Of a DNA stretch of 64,000 bases, positions 19,308 to 62,186 are shown piece after piece. A program made the position numbers and the translations under genes. Source of the DNA: Lachnospiraceae bacterium (GTDB taxonomy: Bacteria; Bacillota; Clostridia; Lachnospirales; Lachnospiraceae); contig JAAUZT010000011.1 of assembly GCA_014804485.1 (NCBI GenBank), positions 137,903 to 201,902 of the forward strand, written 5' to 3'. Position 1 is the first letter of the stretch. Each line of letters starts with the position of its first letter. The notes beneath the pieces were generated by a model. That model searched no databases. It was not told the origin of the DNA and saw nothing but the letters and a program-made list of their open reading frames with translations.

Positions 19308-19396
19308 TTCGTAACTATTTAGAACTCTTGTTCTTCACAGTTACGAAGCACCTTCTGAACAGTTATAGATTTGCTTACTTATTTTTGACACTGTTC
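19308..19396. repeat. Two adjacent hairpins in the intergenic stretch
   Basis: TTCGTAACT (19308-19316) and AGTTACGAA (19339-19347) are a perfect 9-bp inverted repeat. Centred within it GAAC (19322-19325) pairs with GTTC (19330-19333), leaving symmetrical 5-base internal loops. Next to it GAACAGT (19357-19363) pairs with ACTGTTC (19390-19396). Neither is followed by a T-tract. They lie between the Dabb promoter region and palindromic element copy 1. Confidence 0.6.
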
Positions 19397-19419
19397 AAGC
19401 TAACCTAGCCAATACCTAA

Positions 19420-19558
19420 GCACAGATGAAAGTTAATATCTTAAAGAGCCCCTCAAAAAGCGTCGGCACTTAACGAGGTTTCTCACGAGTTTAGTGTCCG
19501 CTACGCTTTTTGCGGAGCGAAAGCGCGGCTCCGTAGATATTAACTTTTATCGCTGCGT
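19420..19558. repeat. Palindromic dispersed element, copy 1
   Basis: This 139-base element folds into one long interrupted hairpin. The outer arms are GCACAGATGAAAGTTAATAT (from 19420) and the AGATATTAACTTTTATC region ending near 19558. The next stem is AAAAAGCGT (19455-19463) with ACGCTTTTT (19503-19511). The innermost stem is GGCACTTAAC (19465-19474) with GTTTAGTGTC (19489-19498). A side hairpin CGGAGC/GCTCCG lies in the 3' arm. A second copy is at 61686-61821; shared blocks include CCCCTCAAAAAGCGT, CTCACGAGT and CGCTACGCTTTTTGCGGAGCGA. The remaining intergenic bases (19239-19605) hold the hairpins described separately and no gene. Confidence 0.85.
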
Positions 19559-19571
19559 ACCATTTAGATAA

Positions 19572-19593
19572 AGCTGTGGAATACTCCACAGCT
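19572..19593 (-). terminator. Probable terminator of the nfn operon
   Basis: Perfect inverted repeat AGCTGTGGA (19572-19580) and TCCACAGCT (19585-19593) with a 4-base loop, about 13 bases after the nfnB stop. On the minus strand it is followed by TTATCTAAAT, a weak T-rich tail. Confidence 0.6.
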
Positions 19594-50178: not shown

Positions 50179-53100
50179 TTATGCCGTTTTCACTTTAGCT
50201 GATTTATCCTTCTTCATGAACAGAATAATGGATAAACATGCCAGACCGATGGATAAGAACCACTTCGGATGAATCGGATCTCCGGTCTTAGGTGTAGTAT
50301 CCAGCATACCCTCTGTCAGATTTCCCGTGTCTACATAGACCGTGTACGGCGAAAAGTGCGAAGCCGTAAATCTGATACAAGGAACACCGTTTATCGTTGT
50401 AAAGTTCTCATTTAAATTCTCTAACTGATTACCGTTAACAACCGCACCGGCCATATTATTACCGCCATACGCCACCAGTGCATCCGGAATCGGAATCGTG
50501 ATATCCACTGTAATTCCCGCAAGCTGGTCACCCGTAAGCTGATAGGTTCCTGTAGAATCCCACAAACTGATATCCATCGCATAATACAGGATGCTATCCA
50601 GACTGCCGTACTTGTTCGTCAGTGCTTCGGCTACCGCTCTGGTCGCCTCATCCGTCTCCGTAATCTTCACGATAAAGTTATCGGTCGTACCATTTGCATT
50701 GGCAGTTGCCAGATCCTTATTGGATATACCGGGCTTCGTGATATCCACACGCGTACTGCCGCTTCCGCCGGTGTTACCGCCACCGCCGTTATTGTCTGTA
50801 TTCGCCGCCGGTGTTGTTGCCGCCACATAATTAGCCGTCACGGTAACATTGCCTGCTGGCATCGTAAAGGTAGTAGCCGGCAGACTGACACTTGCCAGCG
50901 TAACCCCGTTAGACTCCGTCGTCCACTTCTGGAATACCATGCCCGCTGCAGGTTCGTTTGCCGCAATCACAACGGTAGAACCCTGTGCATACGTACCGCT
51001 TCCGCTGCCGTTTACAACCGTCACCGTAAAGCTAGCCGCTGTAGACGATGAAGTATTGGACGTAGATGATGTTGTGCTCGTAGAACTGCTGGACGATGAT
51101 GTACTACCCGATGAGGATGAAGTACTTCCTCTCGACGTATTAGAACTTCCGCCGCTGGTAGAACCTCTGCTCGTGTTCGTGGAACCGCCGCTTGTATTCG
51201 TAGATCCGCCGCTGGTCGCTGCATCGCGGTACAGAGCAATGATCGTCATATTGGCATCGATCGTTGTGTTCTCCGTCCAGTTATTACTCCACTGCAGGAA
51301 TTCCTTGCCTTCCTTAGTGTGATCGGCATATTGTGGAGCCTCCCATCCCAGATCCATAAAGCTGTTGTTCGGCTCTACATAATACTTGCCATCATCATCA
51401 CTGGAGTTACGTCCGCTTAATCTGTGACCGTCTATACCGTCAAGGAACTCCACTACATACTTGCCATTAATCATGGAACCATCCGACTCATACTGTGCGA
51501 TAAATACGGTCATATCGTCTGTAATCGGATCGTCTAACGTCATACCGCCGGTGGTCTCCCAATGGCTGAACTTATAACCCGGTCTGTGATCCGCCTGCCT
51601 CAGAGTCTCCTCCTCCGGCGGTGCTGTCGCCTTGCTGCCACCCGTATCATGATCGACAATCTGGGTTGCGCCGACCTGTGTTCCGTCATAGTCATAGAAC
51701 ATAACGCGGAACGCATTCAGCACTTCCACCTTCATGCCCTGACCCTCATATCGTTTTCCATAACGATACGCTGCGGAATCTTCGTAAGTATAGATCGTCA
51801 CATTCCGTTTCGGATCAAATGCCATATCCGCTATATCAACTTCCCGTCCGGGAATGGTTATTGACAACGGATGCGTCGCATTCGCTATACCACTGAATGC
51901 ATCATCTCTGATCTTATTAACAGTTCTCGGCAGTTTTACATTGATCAGGCTTAAACAATCCTTAAAGCAATTTTCCGGAATAATCCCCAATCCTTCCGCC
52001 GTGGAAAGATCAACTACTGATATTCCGTCACAGCCTTCAAAAGCACTCTCTGCAATCTCGGTCACACTGCTAATCAGCCTGTCGGGATCCGGTGCTACGG
52101 AAGTTTTCTCCAGATTCTCGTCGCCTGTATTCGGTTTACCTCTGGTCATAAGGCATTCTATGATTCTATATTTCCCGGCGTTATTCGCATCCTGCTCGTA
52201 GATGATACCGTTCTCTGCCGGATATTTCTCGTTGCCGACCACACTCGTCAGATTGCCGCATCCTCTGAAAGGAAGTAATCCGATCTCTTCAGCCTGGCCA
52301 AGCACTACTCTCTCCAACTGCTCGCAGCTGTCAAAAGCATAATCCGGTAATTTCTTAACGGTCGTCAGAATAACGCTTCTTAAATGGTCGTTACCGTTCG
52401 GATTTTCCTCACGTTGATCACCTTCTGCATAATCCACGTAATAACCGCTGAACAATCCGGGTGTTGCACCGTTTGTTCTTCGTGTATACATATTGTTGCT
52501 GGCTGCCGTTCTCTTCTTTCTTATATATGTGTCATAATTGTCGCCGTTTGCTGTCGCATAAGCGCTGACATCAATAGAGTCCACTCCCGCCGGAACCACT
52601 ACTTCCTGTGTTGCATTGATGAACGTCCATACTTTATCCGGAACCTTCTTATAATCAGGGAATGATTCATATTCAGGATCATTCAGATAACTCTCATAAT
52701 TATCCATAAAGTTATATGGTGTTGCTTTAAAGTACGGTATCGGATTAGCCACCGCCGCCTCTGCAACTATAGGCTCAAACAACAAATCAATTAAATATGC
52801 CTTTGCGGTATCTGTACCTCCGCTTGTCGGCAGATAACTTTTCCAAAATCCCGGCTCACAATAATTCGGATTAATCCAAGGTCCGTACCTCTGCTCCAGT
52901 TCCTGATCATATTCAGCCTTCGCAATTCCCAATCCGTTATCCAAAACAACCTGATCCTGATCCTGCTGCTTCGCATTCCAGATATAGGCATATTCTCTCC
53001 GCATCTGTTCCACGGCATCTCCGCTGTCATATACCGTATAGTAATAATAGTTCTCCATATCCTTACAGTAATCCCGCAGCTCTTCATCGAGATCGTTCAC

Positions 53101-55542
53101 GTTCTCCACATCCAGATCGCTGAACTTCGGATAATCTAACAGAGTGACTACCCCGCTCTTATCACACATTACCGTCAGATGCGTACCAACTTCGCTGTCC
53201 CACAGACTCTGATAGCACACATTGATTGCAGGAAGATTGACATTATCCTGATCCTTCAACACATGTGACATATCTGTTGCCCACTCAAACGGCGCGTAGT
53301 CTTCCACGATATCTCCATGGAATGTAAGCTGACTTCCCGTGGTCACGAATGCACTGTCATCCATCACCAGAGATTCATATCCCGCAGACGGTTTTGTGAA
53401 ATATACATCATATAAATACTTACATCCTGCAAACGCATCTTTGCCGATGTTTGTCACGGAATCGCCGATCCGTACTTTCTCCAATATAGGCAGGTCTCTA
53501 AACGCTCCATCGGCAATCGTGCTGACAGACCGGTTCTGTATTGTTATACTTTTGATTTTATTGCGCAGCTCCTTATTAGAGAAACATTCCGACCCAATAC
53601 TCTTGATATCAAAATTACCGATCTTGCTCGGAATGACAATGTCGATGCTCTTCGCGCTGGAATCAATCAGCGCACAGGAGATCAATTCCCCGTCATTACC
53701 TGCCCCGTAGCGATAACGATTGCCGTCCTCGCTCTCCAACGCCATCTCATAATAAGTCTTACCGCCGCTCTCATATACATACGGTATTCCGTTGCCGTCA
53801 TTTCTAACCGCATCCCAAGTACTTCTTCTGGGGTACGCCGGTCCGTCCGCATACAACTCCGGACCATATACGCAGAACTCCGGATCTGTCACGTAACGGA
53901 ATAAGCCTTCATCAAATGTTGCCGTTCCGCATTTCTCGGAAAATACAGCTTTCTTTAATCCAAAGCAGTTATAGAAAGTAGATTCCGGTATCTTCTTAGT
54001 ATAATTCTGTATATTGACTTCTGTCAGATTCCTGTGGTTCGCAAGGACATAATCGTCCATATTGCTAAGTCCTTCACTTGGGAAAGAAAAACTCTGTAAG
54101 GAATCCCCACTGGGCGACTGCACCGCAAAGCTTCCCTTACCAAGATTCTTAATCTTGGCCGTGCCGAAATTAACCGTCGTCAGTCTGGTATCATCAAAAA
54201 ATGCATAATCACCTATATCGCATTCACTGATTCTGTCATCAAATTTAATCTCATTCAGACTCAGACAACTTGAAAAAGCACCGTATCCGATTGTCTTAAG
54301 CGTCCACGGAAGCGAAAGCGGCGTATTGATACCGGACATACGGAAGGCTTCCGCACCGATCGCATAAGTATCCGCCGTATCCGTGAAATGTATCTCCGTC
54401 AGTTTCTGACAGCCATAGAACGCACGATTACCGATCATATCTGCATTACCGATCACCACGCTGGTAATGCCGGAATTTTCAAAAGCACTTTCACCGATAT
54501 ACTGTACCTTATCGGAGAAGTCGATCTGTCCCACATTCTGCACATTGTAAAACGCCTTATCTGCTATTGTGCTAATGTAACGAACATCCAGCAGTACAAG
54601 GTAACCGTCCACATCCACATAACCGTAAGGGAGTTCCTCAGACTTCTCATTACTGTATGCTACGTAGACGAGCTCGCTGTTACTCTGTCCGAGTCTCTGA
54701 TCTGTAGCCGATGTCAGTCTGTACTTCGTTCCCTTCAGAATGTTATTATGTTCACAGAAGAAATCGATCTGCTGATCACTATCCAGATTCGCAGGTGTTC
54801 TTACCATATCCTCCGGCGGATTCAGGGCAGGATCATTTGCGGCATAATATGCCTTAAATTCCTCTGTCTTCGTATTAAAATCTCTCTCGAAATATTTCTG
54901 GAAGAAGGCCACGGTCTTCTCATCCAATATCACGGCACCCGAAAGCGGATCATAATCCATGTAACTGTATGTAAGAGCATTGGTGGGATAAAACTGATTG
55001 CTCGGACTCAGATTATCCATATACTCAATTCCACAGCTCTTCGGGTCTCCGTTTGCACCAAAATAATTGTTAAATTCCGTCGCTTTTACTACAAAATAAT
55101 TTTTATTCGGCTGCAGACCGAGGTTTACAACATCTCTCGGGAAATAATTATTATATCTGCAAAGACGACCGAACTGAGAATTAATGGGCTCATACAGGAA
55201 CTGCCATGTCAGCACGAGAGACTGTCCGTCCCGCACTACGATCTCCGTCTGTTCCAGATCAGGATAATCCCCCGTCACGGCTGCAACCAACTGATCATCC
55301 GTATAATCCACATACTTGTTAACCGTGTTGCCGGGGTTTGACACATACTCATCTCCGGTTGCATCCACATATTGGATACCCGCATCACCTCCGGTCGTAT
55401 CATCCGCTTCATCTGCCAGGTTCTCCGGTACCGGAATCGCTGCAACGGCGATCGCTGTGACCATCAGTACTGCAGCAATACTGCGTCTCACTGTCCTTTT
55501 TAATCTTCTTTTTGATTTCTTTAATACTGTCTTTTTTGCCAT
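50179..55542 (-). CDS. Large LRR/InlB-repeat surface protein, sortase substrate
   Basis: A 1787-residue secreted protein. The signal peptide has an extended basic N-terminus (KKSKRRLKRTVRRSIAAVLMVTAIAVAAIPV). Many LRR_5 units follow (for example IGESAFENSGITSVVIGNADMIGNRAFYGC), with an insertion of ~250 residues near 770-1050 that is not repeat-like. From ~1340 there are InlB-type/beta-grasp repeats (VMFYDYDGTQVG..., VEFLDGIDGHRLSG), a Ser/Thr/Gly linker, another repeat (QGSTVVIAANEPAAGMVFQKW) and the pre-anchor domain ending IRFTASHFSPYTVYV. The anchor is TPKTGDPIHPKWFLSIG plus hydrophobic and basic parts. GAGGAAAG precedes the ATG. It lies 45 bases downstream of the sortase. Confidence 0.9.
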   Translation of the reverse strand: MAKKTVLKKSKRRLKRTVRRSIAAVLMVTAIAVAAIPVPENLADEADDTTGGDAGIQYVDATGDEYVSNPGNTVNKYVDYTDDQLVAAVTGDYPDLEQTEIVVRDGQSLVLTWQFLYEPINSQFGRLCRYNNYFPRDVVNLGLQPNKNYFVVKATEFNNYFGANGDPKSCGIEYMDNLSPSNQFYPTNALTYSYMDYDPLSGAVILDEKTVAFFQKYFERDFNTKTEEFKAYYAANDPALNPPEDMVRTPANLDSDQQIDFFCEHNNILKGTKYRLTSATDQRLGQSNSELVYVAYSNEKSEELPYGYVDVDGYLVLLDVRYISTIADKAFYNVQNVGQIDFSDKVQYIGESAFENSGITSVVIGNADMIGNRAFYGCQKLTEIHFTDTADTYAIGAEAFRMSGINTPLSLPWTLKTIGYGAFSSCLSLNEIKFDDRISECDIGDYAFFDDTRLTTVNFGTAKIKNLGKGSFAVQSPSGDSLQSFSFPSEGLSNMDDYVLANHRNLTEVNIQNYTKKIPESTFYNCFGLKKAVFSEKCGTATFDEGLFRYVTDPEFCVYGPELYADGPAYPRRSTWDAVRNDGNGIPYVYESGGKTYYEMALESEDGNRYRYGAGNDGELISCALIDSSAKSIDIVIPSKIGNFDIKSIGSECFSNKELRNKIKSITIQNRSVSTIADGAFRDLPILEKVRIGDSVTNIGKDAFAGCKYLYDVYFTKPSAGYESLVMDDSAFVTTGSQLTFHGDIVEDYAPFEWATDMSHVLKDQDNVNLPAINVCYQSLWDSEVGTHLTVMCDKSGVVTLLDYPKFSDLDVENVNDLDEELRDYCKDMENYYYYTVYDSGDAVEQMRREYAYIWNAKQQDQDQVVLDNGLGIAKAEYDQELEQRYGPWINPNYCEPGFWKSYLPTSGGTDTAKAYLIDLLFEPIVAEAAVANPIPYFKATPYNFMDNYESYLNDPEYESFPDYKKVPDKVWTFINATQEVVVPAGVDSIDVSAYATANGDNYDTYIRKKRTAASNNMYTRRTNGATPGLFSGYYVDYAEGDQREENPNGNDHLRSVILTTVKKLPDYAFDSCEQLERVVLGQAEEIGLLPFRGCGNLTSVVGNEKYPAENGIIYEQDANNAGKYRIIECLMTRGKPNTGDENLEKTSVAPDPDRLISSVTEIAESAFEGCDGISVVDLSTAEGLGIIPENCFKDCLSLINVKLPRTVNKIRDDAFSGIANATHPLSITIPGREVDIADMAFDPKRNVTIYTYEDSAAYRYGKRYEGQGMKVEVLNAFRVMFYDYDGTQVGATQIVDHDTGGSKATAPPEEETLRQADHRPGYKFSHWETTGGMTLDDPITDDMTVFIAQYESDGSMINGKYVVEFLDGIDGHRLSGRNSSDDDGKYYVEPNNSFMDLGWEAPQYADHTKEGKEFLQWSNNWTENTTIDANMTIIALYRDAATSGGSTNTSGGSTNTSRGSTSGGSSNTSRGSTSSSSGSTSSSSSSTSTTSSTSNTSSSTAASFTVTVVNGSGSGTYAQGSTVVIAANEPAAGMVFQKWTTESNGVTLASVSLPATTFTMPAGNVTVTANYVAATTPAANTDNNGGGGNTGGSGSTRVDITKPGISNKDLATANANGTTDNFIVKITETDEATRAVAEALTNKYGSLDSILYYAMDISLWDSTGTYQLTGDQLAGITVDITIPIPDALVAYGGNNMAGAVVNGNQLENLNENFTTINGVPCIRFTASHFSPYTVYVDTGNLTEGMLDTTPKTGDPIHPKWFLSIGLACLSIILFMKKDKSAKVKTA
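51036..51218 (-). repeat. Degenerate repeat coding for a Ser/Thr/Gly linker
   Basis: About 60 codons within the 1787-residue protein encode a low-complexity linker made of GGSTNTS/RGSTS-type units that grade into poly-Ser/Thr. It separates the InlB-like repeats from the C-terminal half and is likely a flexible, possibly glycosylated, spacer. Such tracts vary in length between strains. Confidence 0.7.
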
Positions 55543-56972: not shown

Positions 56973-59900
56973 CTATAAGCCAAAGAGTCCGAGTCCCTTT
57001 CCTTTGATCTTAAACGTAGCCGTCTTCGTCCCCCCGTAATTGCCCAGTCCGCGAATCACTACTTTAGCCGTACCTTTGTTAATATTATTGCTGTAACTGT
57101 CTGCTACGATCTCATACTCCTCCGGCTTTAAGGCTGTACCATTTACTTCCACATAGACCGCCTGCGGATCGGCTTTTGTATCAAGCTCGATCGCTTTGCC
57201 GGTATAGGTCTGGTCTTTTATGCTCACCTTTGCCTTCGTGATGCTCGCTGCAGTGATCCTGTAAGTTCCCGAAACTTCTCCGCTGTAATCCCTGCCCTTC
57301 GCCGTGATTGTCACATTAATCTTGGTTCCGACCGGGATAATATCATCCGCCCCCACCAGATCTCCTGCCTGCTTGTAAATTTTACCAATACGGGTTTTTT
57401 CGGCATACGAGTATTCCATATTCTTGTCATAGTCTTTGCCCGCTGCCAGTTTTTTACCATTCGTATCTGTCACCTGAACGGTCGTCTTATAAATATTCTT
57501 CTTATCCTGAAAAACCTTATCGGCGGCAGTTACTGTCATCTTACCGATATCCTGCGTTGTAATCTCATACTCTTTGGTTGTGCTTCCGGTAAAGTTGCCT
57601 TTGCCTTTGATCGTCAGTACAGCCAGACTGCCCGCTGCATTATTCTGTTTATATGCCAGCGTATAATCTGTACCGGCTTGCAGGGTCTGACTGCCGAATT
57701 TTACAACCGGTTCCGGCTTACAGCCGCCCTTAACGTAACTGTAAGCCTTATCCAAACTAATCTTTACCCTGCTTATGTCATATGCGGTAATCTTAAAGGT
57801 TTTCTTGATCTTTCCGCTGTATTCGTTCTTACCCGTAAAGGTTGCCGTTGCAGTTCCCACCTTCACATTATTGGTATACTCAACCTCATAATCCTTACCT
57901 TTCGTAAGCGTACGGGTTACCGTCTCACCGTCCAATTTGACATCGACCATCACTTTCACATCATCATCACGGATCGGCTTGCCTGTATAGACCGACGTAT
58001 TACCAAACGAAAACTCGACTTTCGCTTTGTTCAGGGAGGCAACCTCCGTAATCTTAAAAGTCACCCTCTTCGTTCCCGCATAATTTCCCATTCCTATAAC
58101 AGCGATGGTCGCGGTTCCGACATTTGTATGATCTCCGATATTATAGTCTACTCTATAATCTTCGCCCAGAGTCAATACCTTGCTCTTCTCCTTGACCGTA
58201 AGCAACGGTTCGATCGGTTTTCCCGTATAGGTCTGATCCGGTATTTTGGTCACCGTAAGCTTCGATACCAATATGCCGTCCGTTATCGTAAACCGGAAGT
58301 CTTGTTTCCCTTTATAATTGCCGATGCCGGACACGATTAGGGTATACACGCCTACATCCTTGTAGCTTGCCTCCTGATTATCTGCATTCCGTACAATATA
58401 ATCCTTGTTGACCGCAAGCTTCTTACCATTCCACAATACTGCCGGAGACGGCTTCTGTGCCTTCTTGCTATTGTATGCTACGGCGATATCATCGATAATG
58501 ACATCTTTGTCACTTATATCTTTAGGTACAATCGTAAAGGTTCTCGTTACCTTGCCTTCATAATTACCTTTACCTACGATGATAATCGATGGTGCCTTCG
58601 CCGCATTCCGATCCGCCGCATTCGTATTGTTGGTATAACTTATTGTGTAATCTTTCTTCTCCACAAGTCGCGTCTTATAATCATACACCCTGACCTCAGG
58701 CTTGATTGCCTTTCCGGTATAGGTATACTCCGAGACTTCAGTCATCCACAGTCCTTCCGGAATGATTCCACTGCTCGGAATATCTTCCGGGGGCACTTCA
58801 GGCTCATCATCCTCTCCGCCTGCCAGCAAATCGATATAATAATAGAATTTCACCGTATCGCTGTCCGGCTGTCCCTGCTTATGCGCATACGCCCAGATCA
58901 CCGTAAATCCGTTCACCTTCACTTCGATCGGATTATTATAGAGTGAATAGCGATTGCTTCCCTTATCAGGTTTCGAGCTGTCCAACGTATAATAAATCTC
59001 AGCACCCTCTGTCTCACAAGACAGTTTGATCGTCGTCCCGCGACTCACACCGCTTCCGGTGGCAACACTTGCTGTCGGAACTGCCACAGCATCCCTGACC
59101 GCATATTTCTCACGAACGCTGACTTGTACTGTCACACGCAGAGACACCTCGCCTCCATCGATATCCGCCGGCAGAACCACGTTACCTCCCATTATAAAGG
59201 TCTGTTCCGCTTCATTCCGCGGACCGTATGAAGTACCGTCTGTCGCTACTCTCTCCCACGCTACCGCCGCTGTTTCGTTGATCTCTGTCAGCTCGTTTTC
59301 TTCCGCACCGATATTCCGCGTTACGATCTTCACTGTCGCCGGCAGCTCAATCTTATCGATAGGCGTGCCGTTTTCTACATTGGTCACCGGTGCCGGTGCA
59401 ATGATCCGAAGCAGGTTCCTCGTCGGAACGATCTCTTTCTCCACTACCGTCAGGGTTCCTGACCGATATGTGATCCTGTAATTGGGACCCGCATCAGCAT
59501 CCGATGCCACGATATCATATGTTCCTGCCATATCGGTATTCTGAATATCACAGGTAAATATCGGTTCCTTTAACAGTTCCTCATCTTTCAATAACCCCAT
59601 CCCTGCAATCTCATAGGAATAATCACTCCGTTCTGGCAGTTTATCTTCTGTCTTAATCTCCTTATCGCCCACCTTAATAACTATCGGTCGTTGGGCAATG
59701 CTGAACGAATACTCCATCGATCCCCGATACTTGTCAGTCTCCTCCGGTTTAGAGGATGCCGTCACGGTAATCGTATATTCTCCGGCCGCGCTCGGCATAC
59801 CATTCACAATGTCACCAGACGAATATGCCCTGCCGTTCGCCAGCGTACCCTCAATACTGTACTCAAAATCAACCTTTTCCGTGATGTCCTTATTCTCGAC

Positions 59901-61523
59901 ACCGCTCTGATTTAATTCAACCTTCAGATTTTCTGTATTACACACCACCGGAGTCCCGTCATACACTTTCGGTGACGGTGTTATCGTAATACCTGAGATC
60001 GTGATTCGATCTTTCTCCAATACAGTCAGTGTACCCGATACATATTGGATCACATAATTCGCCCCCGCAGATGCATTACGCGGTGTGATCGTATATTTTC
60101 CCGTCTTCTCCGTGTTTGATATATCGCAGATATATGACGGTTTTTTCGTGATTTCATCGCCAGGCAACAATCCCTCTGGTGGTTCATAATCAAATTCCGT
60201 CGGGATCTTATCGCCCTGCTTAATAACCATATCCTTCGCCGTAAGGGTCACGGGTCTCTGGGTAATAGTAAAGTCTCTTCTCAGTTCACCTCTGTATTTA
60301 TCAGATATGACCACAACCTTCAATGTATATGTGCCGGCTTCCTTCGGTGTACCTGTCTTATTCTCCGGATCATCCGGCCCAGTAATATCATTTGAAGTGT
60401 ACAGTGTCCCATCTTTCTGTCCACCCGAAATGCTATACTGTAATGTCAGACCGGAAATTTCCGTTCCGGACGATGTCACCTTCACCTTACTGATATCACA
60501 TTCTACCGGCGTTCCATCGTATACTTTATCGGACACGGTAATACCGGAAATATCAACCGTCTCTTTACTTGATACGGTCAATGTCCCCTCAAGATAAGTA
60601 ATAATATAGTTTGGTCCCGCCTCTGCGCCCGATGCTGTAATCGTATATTTCCCCGGCGTGTCCTCCGTATCCTTTGTAACATCACAGGTTAGATTCGGTT
60701 TCTCTTTAAGTTCTTCCCCGTTTACCAAGCCAATAACTGTATATTCATAAGCCGGCAGCGGATCTCCGATTTTCTTCTGCTTATCACTTACCTTGATGGT
60801 GATCGTCTTCTTATTAATTGCAAACTGAATTCCCTGCGATCCCGCATACTTTCCGTTCGAGTCCGCAGCAGTCACTGTGAGCGTATAGTTTCCTGCATCC
60901 TTAGGCATTCCGGTTACGATAGTGCCGTCCGTCGTACTGTCCGAGGTGTAGCTATATGTCGTATTATCCGCCTTAGTTCCGGAAATACTGTATCTGAATT
61001 CCACCAGCGATGTAACATCTTCCTCTCTGGATGCTGCTGATGCTTCTTTCGGTACAATCGCTTTCAAAGAGCCGCTTGCTCTGGCCGATGTGCCGTCATA
61101 AAGCTTATTGGATACTGTGATTCCGGAAACCACAACTCTCTGCGGTCCGGTCGGTGTTGTCTCCCCCTCATCTCCATCCGCCTGCACCGCAGGTGCATCT
61201 GATTCGGCAGCATCTGGAGTACTATATGCTTCCGCACTTTCCTCATAGTTCTCAATCTGCGTTTCTCCCTCCGGCACAATACCCTGATCCGACTGTGTCT
61301 GCCCGACCGTATCCGGATTCTTAACCACAGTCTCATCATCGGCTTCCGAATCTGCCTCCGGCGTTATATCTGCTGTTATTTTCGGATTCTCTTCCTCGTA
61401 CAAGTCCCCTTCCTGTGCCGCATGCACAGTAAGCATATTAATATCCATACTTCCTATGCAAACAGCCGCCGAAAGCAGCCATGCTACCATCCTCATACGC
61501 TTTGTCCGAAAAACTCTGCTCAT
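56973..61523 (-). CDS. Giant secreted YDG/MBG-repeat and YTGK-repeat protein
   Basis: A 1516-residue secreted protein. After the signal peptide (MVAWLLSAAVCIGSMDINMLTVHAA) come an acidic linker (to ~130) and three YDG plus MBG-type units of ~190 residues (starts near 132, 326 and 509; ISGITVSDKVYDGTPV ... GTLTV). Then an Ig-like part, a CHB_HEX-type domain (EIYYTLDSSKPDKGSNRY) and seven ~80-residue repeats of the form YTGKxIxP ... DYxVxYxNN ... GxGNYxG. The last repeat ends at GLGLFGL without sorting signal or membrane helix, so it is not an obvious sortase substrate. The start is ATG 61523, eight bases after AAAGGAG. It is probably an adhesin or wall-associated rod; its ligand is unknown. 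Confidence 0.88.
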   Translation of the reverse strand: MSRVFRTKRMRMVAWLLSAAVCIGSMDINMLTVHAAQEGDLYEEENPKITADITPEADSEADDETVVKNPDTVGQTQSDQGIVPEGETQIENYEESAEAYSTPDAAESDAPAVQADGDEGETTPTGPQRVVVSGITVSNKLYDGTSARASGSLKAIVPKEASAASREEDVTSLVEFRYSISGTKADNTTYSYTSDSTTDGTIVTGMPKDAGNYTLTVTAADSNGKYAGSQGIQFAINKKTITIKVSDKQKKIGDPLPAYEYTVIGLVNGEELKEKPNLTCDVTKDTEDTPGKYTITASGAEAGPNYIITYLEGTLTVSSKETVDISGITVSDKVYDGTPVECDISKVKVTSSGTEISGLTLQYSISGGQKDGTLYTSNDITGPDDPENKTGTPKEAGTYTLKVVVISDKYRGELRRDFTITQRPVTLTAKDMVIKQGDKIPTEFDYEPPEGLLPGDEITKKPSYICDISNTEKTGKYTITPRNASAGANYVIQYVSGTLTVLEKDRITISGITITPSPKVYDGTPVVCNTENLKVELNQSGVENKDITEKVDFEYSIEGTLANGRAYSSGDIVNGMPSAAGEYTITVTASSKPEETDKYRGSMEYSFSIAQRPIVIKVGDKEIKTEDKLPERSDYSYEIAGMGLLKDEELLKEPIFTCDIQNTDMAGTYDIVASDADAGPNYRITYRSGTLTVVEKEIVPTRNLLRIIAPAPVTNVENGTPIDKIELPATVKIVTRNIGAEENELTEINETAAVAWERVATDGTSYGPRNEAEQTFIMGGNVVLPADIDGGEVSLRVTVQVSVREKYAVRDAVAVPTASVATGSGVSRGTTIKLSCETEGAEIYYTLDSSKPDKGSNRYSLYNNPIEVKVNGFTVIWAYAHKQGQPDSDTVKFYYYIDLLAGGEDDEPEVPPEDIPSSGIIPEGLWMTEVSEYTYTGKAIKPEVRVYDYKTRLVEKKDYTISYTNNTNAADRNAAKAPSIIIVGKGNYEGKVTRTFTIVPKDISDKDVIIDDIAVAYNSKKAQKPSPAVLWNGKKLAVNKDYIVRNADNQEASYKDVGVYTLIVSGIGNYKGKQDFRFTITDGILVSKLTVTKIPDQTYTGKPIEPLLTVKEKSKVLTLGEDYRVDYNIGDHTNVGTATIAVIGMGNYAGTKRVTFKITEVASLNKAKVEFSFGNTSVYTGKPIRDDDVKVMVDVKLDGETVTRTLTKGKDYEVEYTNNVKVGTATATFTGKNEYSGKIKKTFKITAYDISRVKISLDKAYSYVKGGCKPEPVVKFGSQTLQAGTDYTLAYKQNNAAGSLAVLTIKGKGNFTGSTTKEYEITTQDIGKMTVTAADKVFQDKKNIYKTTVQVTDTNGKKLAAGKDYDKNMEYSYAEKTRIGKIYKQAGDLVGADDIIPVGTKINVTITAKGRDYSGEVSGTYRITAASITKAKVSIKDQTYTGKAIELDTKADPQAVYVEVNGTALKPEEYEIVADSYSNNINKGTAKVVIRGLGNYGGTKTATFKIKGKGLGLFGL

Positions 61524-61581
61524 TCCCAACACTCCTTTATCCTTACGGCAATACTAGATATAGCTATATTTATACATATTT

Positions 61582-61610: not shown

Positions 61611-61685
61611 TTCTTCTTTTATAAAAATCCTTTTTACCTTTTACTCCTGACTGTATGTTACTATTCATACCCATGCCACAGCCTA

Positions 61686-61821
61686 AGCTCAGAGGGGAGT
61701 TAATATCTGAAGGAACCCCTCAAAAAGCGTTGGCACTTGACGAGGTATCTCACGAGTCTAGTGCCCGCTACGCTTTTTGCGGAGCGAGATCTCGGTGACG
61801 CAGATATAACTTCACTCTGGG
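61686..61821. repeat. Palindromic dispersed element, copy 2
   Basis: This 136-base second copy of the element at 19420-19558 has the same order of stems. The outer arms are GCTCAGAGGGGAGTTAATAT (from 61686) and AGATATAACTTCACTCTGGG (from 61801). The middle stem is AAAAAGCGT (61721-61729) with ACGCTTTTT (61769-61777). The inner stem is GGCACTTGAC (61731-61740) with GTCTAGTGCC (61755-61764). It sits in the gene-free stretch 61524-61946, between the YDG/MBG promoter and the Cys-rich gene promoter. Several stem bases differ from copy 1 in paired fashion. Confidence 0.85.
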
Positions 61822-61889
61822 CGACCGGGGTGCCCAATGTGTGAATGGTAATGACTGTATCGCTGCACAGAACAATTTTAAAATTTGTA

Positions 61890-61946: not shown

Positions 61947-62186
61947 ATGAGCGATTTATCAGCAACTCACTGCGGATGCAACAACAATAATAACACCAGT
62001 CTTTTCGGCGGCAACGGATGTGGTTCCTGGATCTGGATCCTGCTCCTCTTATCCTGCTGTGGCAACAACAACGACGGATGCGGATGCGACGGCAACGGTT
62101 TCAGCCTTTTCGGTAATAACGGCGACAATGGCTGCTGCAACACATTGATCTGGTTATTGATCCTTTCCAGCTGCTGCGGTAACTAA
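61947..62186 (+). CDS. Small Cys/Asn/Gly-rich two-repeat protein
   Basis: A 79-residue protein starting MSDLSATHCGC after a GGAGGAATTAACA ribosome-binding site; longer frames in phase begin 34 codons upstream without one. It is built of two tandem repeats: a Cys-Gly-Cys plus Asn/Gly-rich part, SLFG, Asn-Gly, then a hydrophobic IW-[IL]LLLS-type segment closing with CCGN. Ten cysteines occur in all. Proteins of this style in Lachnospiraceae carry the loose name 'chorion class high-cysteine protein'; their function is unknown. The sigma-K-like promoter suggests a spore-coat or crust component, but a membrane-active peptide is also possible because of the hydrophobic segments. Confidence 0.75.
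   Translation: MSDLSATHCGCNNNNNTSLFGGNGCGSWIWILLLLSCCGNNNDGCGCDGNGFSLFGNNGDNGCCNTLIWLLILSSCCGN

Follow-up and report, generated by a model that had tools for sequence, protein, structure and literature searches.

The locus raises the question of whether a long palindromic element, present twice in one stretch of bacterial DNA, is maintained for its fold or only reflects a recent duplication. An earlier note on the window (the whole stretch of 64,000 nucleotides analysed, which starts at C11:137903 of the host genome G000) had described the two copies, at 19420-19558 and 61686-61821, and argued for selection on the folded form. Both copies align over this block and adopt the fold described, with -62.7 kcal/mol (z -7.4) for copy 1 and -56.1 kcal/mol (z -5.1) for copy 2, and none of 200 dinucleotide shuffles folded as low in either case. 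The block is real, but it covers no more than the interior of the element, which in copy 2 extends between GACTGTAT repeats (Table 1). Three of the four stem changes quoted as compensatory fall on consensus pairs (columns 17/154, 19/152 and 62/96 of alignment A2), while that at G19466-T19497 is a one-sided wobble change at a base that is bulged in the consensus. The T/T mismatch said to be kept in both copies is also kept in the family, as TT was found in 145 of the 156 copies, of 183, where the pattern located the place.

The order of parts, from the outside in, is a terminal inverted repeat, a short spacer, P1, P1b, a three-way junction, P2 and P3. P1 is a long and variable stem of about 20-35 bp, and P1b is an inner stem with Watson-Crick pairs in some copies and tandem G.A in others. 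P2 is a conserved hairpin that contains the T/T mismatch and has a tip such as GAGGTNTTTTCGAG, and P3 is a short hairpin with a GNRA loop. The left end of copy 1 is GACACTGTTCA at 19387-19397, and no target duplication was found at its decayed ends (about 19387-19587).

Table 1. Features of the two element copies, in window coordinates.
Feature	Position	Strand	Basis
Copy 1, structured core and P1 (covariance model positions 1-155)	19411..19565	+	G000:C11:157313-157467, 164.6 bits
Copy 1, probable full extent with decayed ends (tentative)	19387..19587	+	Comparison with intact copies
Copy 1, P1 left arm (pairs with 19535-19556)	19420..19441	+	Consensus pairs 10-31 with 140-161
Copy 1, P1 right arm	19535..19556	+	Consensus pairs
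Copy 1, P1b left strand (pairs with 19527-19532)	19445..19450	+	Columns 35-40 with 132-137
Copy 1, P2 central hairpin, contains the T/T mismatch	19451..19515	+	Columns 41-67 with 91-120
Copy 1, P3 hairpin, GNRA loop GAAA at 19519-19522	19516..19526	+	Sequence
Copy 2, complete 196-bp element	61657..61852	+	Ends GTTACTATTCATA / TGTGAATGGTAAT, flanking 8-bp repeats
Copy 2, left terminal repeat	61657..61669	+	
Copy 2, right terminal repeat	61840..61852	+	
Copy 2, target duplication GACTGTAT, left	61649..61656	.	
Copy 2, target duplication GACTGTAT, right	61853..61860	.	
Copy 2, structured core and P1	61678..61831	+	G000:C11:199580-199733, 141.4 bits

The claim that this is more than a two-copy duplication holds. 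A BLAST search gave at least 40 long matches in the host genome (40 scored among 70 candidates), and covariance model R1, built from 37 complete host copies, found 50 places at E <=1e-12, of which 49 are full length and one is cut by a contig end; the 95 host rows of R1 include opposite-strand matches. The check proposed earlier, a covariance-model search of the host and other genomes, thereby found further copies in abundance and excluded chance. L022 (G000:C37) and L024 (G000:C17) are near-identical in element and flanks, i.e., they may represent a recent duplication or assembly redundancy, with host counts slightly inflated.

The family is present in 29 of the 31 genomes of the genus, host included, and under stricter filters in 80 of 150 Lachnospiraceae genomes and 79 of 149 genera. 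Only four of 249 genomes sampled from the phylum matched, all from the same family, and the count outside the family is 0 of 245 as read, the unmatched genomes among the rows listed beginning at 'same order', with 225 rows beyond the listing. Match rows per genome range from a single copy up to 146, with opposite-strand rows included. Named records that match the model come from [Clostridium] symbiosum, Clostridium transplantifaecale, Robinsoniella, Butyrivibrio and many uncultured Lachnospiraceae, and on their account the family is taken to be Lachnospiraceae. Model R2 matched in 75 of 120 pattern-scan stretches (48 of the 80 listed); as R2 includes some loci that were later searched, and R1 was built from host copies, those loci match by construction. 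No match reached the curated Rfam gathering thresholds for the window, L131 or nine loci, and permissive Rfam scans of two copies returned weak matches only, far below gathering scores. What emerges is a conserved three-way-junction fold, intergenic and unmatched in Rfam, that is shared by 80 of the 150 genomes sampled from one bacterial family. The earlier note, which recognised no known REP, MITE or riboswitch class, is right with respect to Rfam, but by its terminal repeats and target duplications the element is a MITE.

We confidently regard the copies as a structured MITE family. The element is about 175-220 bp, too short for a transposase gene, with many intergenic copies, and none of the 37 host copies lies inside a called gene, genes having been called by a simple script that was trained on codon bias in the window, not taken from an annotation. 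Its terminal inverted repeats are of two types, GTTACTNTTCAC with 8-bp duplications and CAATGTCATTAAGTTAAG with 9-11-bp duplications. Target duplications with terminal repeats are typical of DDE transposition. At GTTACT[AGT]TTCAC ends, the flanking 8-mers match at six or more of eight places in 6 of the 24 copies with both outer arms, compared to a mean of 0.64 and a maximum of 4 in 2000 shuffles. Exact 8/8 duplications flank window copy 2, L133, L292, L293 and others, with more cases from G028; the later 8-bp listing, restricted to matches of at least six places or long spans, provides no denominator. A 127-bp copy without P2 has a 7/8 duplication, and a 58-bp copy with little but the ends has an 8/8 duplication. 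In G028, eight GTTACTGTTCA-type arm pairs are spaced 196-236 bp apart. The possibility that the outer arms GTTACTGTTCA are an insertion-target hairpin was ruled out, since the 8-bp duplications flank the arms. Other genomes have other outer repeats, e.g., L068 and L153.

An autonomous element with 8-bp-type ends was not found in the loci examined. IS256 was considered as a partner and matched in three of seven genomes, but the fetched loci had no convincing ends, and candidate L311 had one possible end pair without a duplication (2/8). Units in L252 (2266-2411) and L237 (1211-1462) have GTTACT-type ends and exact 8-bp duplications apart from any core match, and are other MITEs on the same ends.

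The CAATGTCATTAAGTTAAG end occurs 261 times at up to two mismatches in the relative G023 (control 1), and among the 100 places listed many end pairs bound 189 bp and some 158 bp. Exact 9-11-bp duplications were found in 26 of the 31 fetched G023 copies with these ends, and one more has a single mismatch. The remaining four (L075, L076, L098, L106) have an outer pair of GTTACT ends flanked by 8-bp duplications, in which 8, 7, 8 and 8 positions agree, respectively. Since both duplication types are found on copies with these inner ends, the G023 unit has moved on two kinds of ends. Five fetched 158-bp copies are missing some of one P1 arm, yet every one is flanked by a duplication of its own, so this movement does not require an intact fold. 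Four longer G023 elements of 1679-1726 bp (L111, L115, L119, L120) encode a DDE transposase and have the same inner ends, CAATGTCATT, as the 189-bp copies; exact 10-bp duplications flank two of them, and the other two lack any. The one protein tested, from L120, belongs to the IS4 family (127.5 bits, cut-off 115). These IS4-type elements thus have ends in common with the 189-bp copies but differ from them in having a transposase gene, and the MITE core is absent from all four. L115, L119 and L120 also share a leader before the transposase gene with a strong G+C-rich hairpin, which is perhaps an attenuator.

Over the core region, the 37 host copies are either 155 or 170 nt, the difference being a 15-base extension of the P2 tip in the longer form, and other indels are almost absent. 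Both-sided changes occur at 28 of 53 pairs in these copies (A2; shuffled mean 12.0), and 97.9% of the cells pair, compared to 33-47% with slid partners. Among 59 matches from named records, which include two opposite-strand rows and several partial rows, both-sided changes were seen at 49 of 53 pairs (shuffled mean 38.0) and in 849 cells versus 243 after shuffling. The covariation score of 73 core sequences was 0.496, against 0.209 shuffled. A2 and A6 were not fitted to the model structure, while three other multi-copy alignments were. Three contig-end copies (L027, L034, L035) were left out of A2, and elsewhere we excluded opposite-strand matches, the duplicates L048 and L050 and, in assembling the set of 183 copies, A5 matches of less than about 130 bases. 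The P3 loop is GNRA in 171 of 183 copies (7 have other loops and 5 were not located), and the P3 closing pair has changed on both sides in 7 copies. Pairing as such demands neither the GNRA loop nor the T/T mismatch, although both are kept. Some copies, e.g., L181 and L194, have near-perfect long arms. G.U cells make up only 31 of 1896 (1.6%; A6, tip pair 40/46 left out). G.U pairs this rare are unusual for a stepwise-evolving RNA, and DNA-level maintenance of the arms or exchange also fits.

Orthologous sites allow the changes to be followed after insertion. In the sister genome G027, 16 sites match on both flanks with 82-98% identity, window copy 1 included, and 15 of these were analysed (L303 was left out). 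The 794 pairs comprise 741 that are the same and 25 that changed on both sides while staying Watson-Crick; the others are 4 pairs that became G-U, 5 that had been G-U, 9 that lost pairing, 7 that gained it and 3 with both bases replaced where one of the two states is a mismatch. As L346 is the partner of L030 as well as of L040, one of these two is probably paralogous; without L030 the two-sided changes number 21. P2 holds 19 of the 25 both-sided changes, with up to five per site, and such changes accompany the 155-to-170 length switch in L005, L010 and L029. L011 has the length switch without any double change, and isolated double changes are also seen in P1 (L026). This suggests that the both-sided changes in P2 partly reflect hairpin blocks taken over from other copies, besides compensation. 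One-sided stem changes number 25 in the 794 pairs, i.e., 1.6% per base compared to 6.8% (38/555) of unpaired bases, but with both-sided changes counted 81 of 1588 stem bases differ (5.1%), which is not far below the unpaired value. The stems are constrained or repaired after insertion. Window copy 1 is in the process of losing pairs, being mismatched at three stem positions where its G027 ortholog is paired.

The claim of selection on the fold therefore stands in part. Covariation is genuine, and the GNRA loop and the T/T mismatch are kept, but covariation alone is not proof here, because the paired changes at orthologous sites are mostly P2 blocks and G-U is rare. More generally, covariation in multi-copy elements is by itself no proof of RNA function, and the element family offers a clean natural test between covariation by fold selection and by exchange between copies.

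P2-type hairpins also occur without the rest of the element, in 45 of the 120 pattern-scan stretches from other Lachnospiraceae (e.g., L255, L257, L282, L212, L172). A looser pattern found 73 hairpins outside core matches in 46 stretches, two additional hits being the window copies themselves, and 22 of 24 same-strand neighbours closer than 200 bp are spaced 20-24 nt; one pair lies on opposite strands. Several follow tRNA genes (L242, L248). Records from Faecalicatena, Hungatella, Dorea sp. D27, Konateibacter, Frisingicoccus and Hespellia have stand-alone hairpins only. In the host genome all 17 exact hairpin-pattern matches lie inside element copies listed by the model. Rfam found nothing beyond rRNA, tRNA and an FMN riboswitch on 15 stand-alone-hairpin stretches. 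Promoters were unsupported, as the 45 nt upstream contain a perfect -10-like hexamer in 15 of 75 cases, compared to 13 of 85 inside MITE cores.

The evidence on strand is mixed. The GNRA loop and the tandem G.A pairs point to the + strand; both can form in single-stranded DNA too. Strand counts from RNAfold were rejected as G.U-biased or mixing alternative folds, and a symmetric alignment of the P1 arms was used instead. In copies from the genus this gave 118 G.U versus 33 A.C, with 24:7 in the host, 22:8 in other genus members, 8:7 in G017 and 30:0 in the near-identical copies of G023. Named copies from other genera gave 25:21 in the P1 arms and 15:20 in P2. With wider arms the signal fades, to 194 versus 164 over 183 copies and 41 versus 60 in named copies.

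Orientation relative to genes is also uneven. Host copies in same-direction gaps are antisense in 20 cases and sense in 4, and over the 183 copies the numbers are 80 versus 42 (p 0.0007). The antisense bias is strong in G000, G028 and the single copies of other genus members, whereas G007, G021, G017, G023 and the named copies together are balanced at 34:34 in such gaps; a universal orientation rule is thus ruled out. In the 97 cases with an opposite-strand gene to the right, the median distance between the right end of the element and the stop codon of that gene is 25 nt. Neighbouring cores less than 600 bp apart are arranged minus then plus in 15 of 15 cases in the loci scanned (11 of 11 without L029, L039, L305 and L320, whose paired coordinates had been seen beforehand), compared to 8 same-plus, 5 minus-plus and 1 same-minus among cores farther apart. 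Single copies are far commoner than doublets. Convergent genes as the cause of the doublets were rejected, since only 3 of 15 lie between convergent genes, with two more lacking a called neighbour.

Taken together, the elements form a Lachnospiraceae family of structured, non-autonomous MITEs, probably with the core as a passenger that selection keeps as a fold while copies exchange sequence. Insertion proceeds via the terminal repeats, as the fresh target duplications show, and in one genome it has used two kinds of ends in different copies, one of them in common with the resident IS4-type elements; DDE transposases supplied in trans would move the element. The fold of the passenger core would be kept by purifying selection on the single strand, RNA being likelier than ssDNA, and exchange of hairpin blocks among dispersed copies would spread paired changes and hide intermediates. 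Single-strand fold selection on the core is our preferred but unproven reading. A plain parasitic MITE, in which template switching and gene conversion alone keep the arms complementary and the fold is functionless, is a rather unlikely alternative, despite several findings that favour it: the 25 two-sided versus 4 one-sided G-U steps, clustered in P2 and three times coupled to the 155-to-170 switch; the rarity of G.U and its near equality with A.C in named copies; and the near-perfect long arms and the movement of arm-deficient copies. However, copying of arms would erase the T/T mismatch and the GNRA loop, yet both are kept; one-sided stem changes occur at about a quarter of the unpaired-base rate; and P2-type hairpins exist outside the element. 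These hairpins slightly raise another reading, which is possible but tentative, namely that P2 is a binding site for a Lachnospiraceae-specific RNA- or ssDNA-binding factor, adopted by the MITE core and by the separate tandem arrays with their 20-24 nt spacing. Terminal repeats of several unrelated kinds would then have captured the core, and exchange between copies would refresh its hairpin. If so, the element would be a mobile noncoding module and not a decayed transposon, and the stand-alone hairpins make the putative host factor a testable idea.

It is improbable that the family is a dispersed host regulatory RNA, an antisense or 3' end element for which mobility lies only in the past. The antisense excess, the short distance to opposite-strand stop codons and the absence of host copies from called genes would agree with such a role, but the balanced orientation in several genomes does not, exact fresh duplications and bursts indicate recent movement, and no conserved promoter was seen by eye. 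Still less credible, and in our view very improbable, is movement in the manner of REPINs, with a Y1 (RAYT) transposase acting on single-stranded DNA. The divergent doublets and the covarying hairpins resemble REPINs, but the terminal repeats and the 8- and 10-bp target duplications do not fit, and no match to the Y1 transposase PF01797 was found in the 85% complete G000 assembly, while the control was positive in 5 of 14 genomes. As far as the excerpted text of PMC3116915 describes them, REPINs and REP doublets with RAYT are likewise palindromic and dispersed, with inverted doublets and compensatory changes. The present element differs in being much longer, in its target duplications and in the lack of a Y1 transposase in the host assembly.

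Among other known systems, the bcr repeats (bcr1-bcr18) are similar in being intergenic, in that bcr1-bcr3 are MITE-like and in that some have conserved predicted structures (excerpts of PMC6542083 and PMC3446304). In the Bacillus cereus group, bcr1 reaches up to 130 copies and bcr movement is linked to a TTTAT motif (PMC6542083, in part), while excerpts of PMC3446304 give conserved predicted structures for bcr10 and bcr18 and bcr copies in mRNA for 84 of 165 in one strain and 62 of 155 (40%) in another. By description, the present family is set apart by its 8- or 10-bp duplications, its other host and its other core, and the TTTAT border motif of bcr1 is absent, as the duplications differ between sites. 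Two Clostridium species are among those covered by a 40-genome survey of stem-loop families (PMC2267715, in part). In the open-licence literature we recognised no description of the present element, and a search with the letters CTTAGCGAGGT returned, among open-licence papers, only unrelated subjects by title. Correia elements, ERIC and RUP are short intergenic palindromic MITEs that are thought to move in trans. The present family is again set apart by description, through its three-way-junction core across more than half of the sampled genera and its exchangeable terminal repeats.

The surroundings of the two window copies show some further features. A small ORF at 61947-62186 (+) adjoins copy 2 and appears by eye to be Cys/Asn/Gly-rich with hydrophobic stretches, and two very long minus-strand ORFs are found at 50179-55542 (1787 aa) and 56973-61532 (1519 aa). 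The stretch GAAGCACCTTCTGAACAGTTA occurs at about 19343-19366 in the window and in the left flank of L019, i.e., beside two different copies, which suggests a further repeat family.
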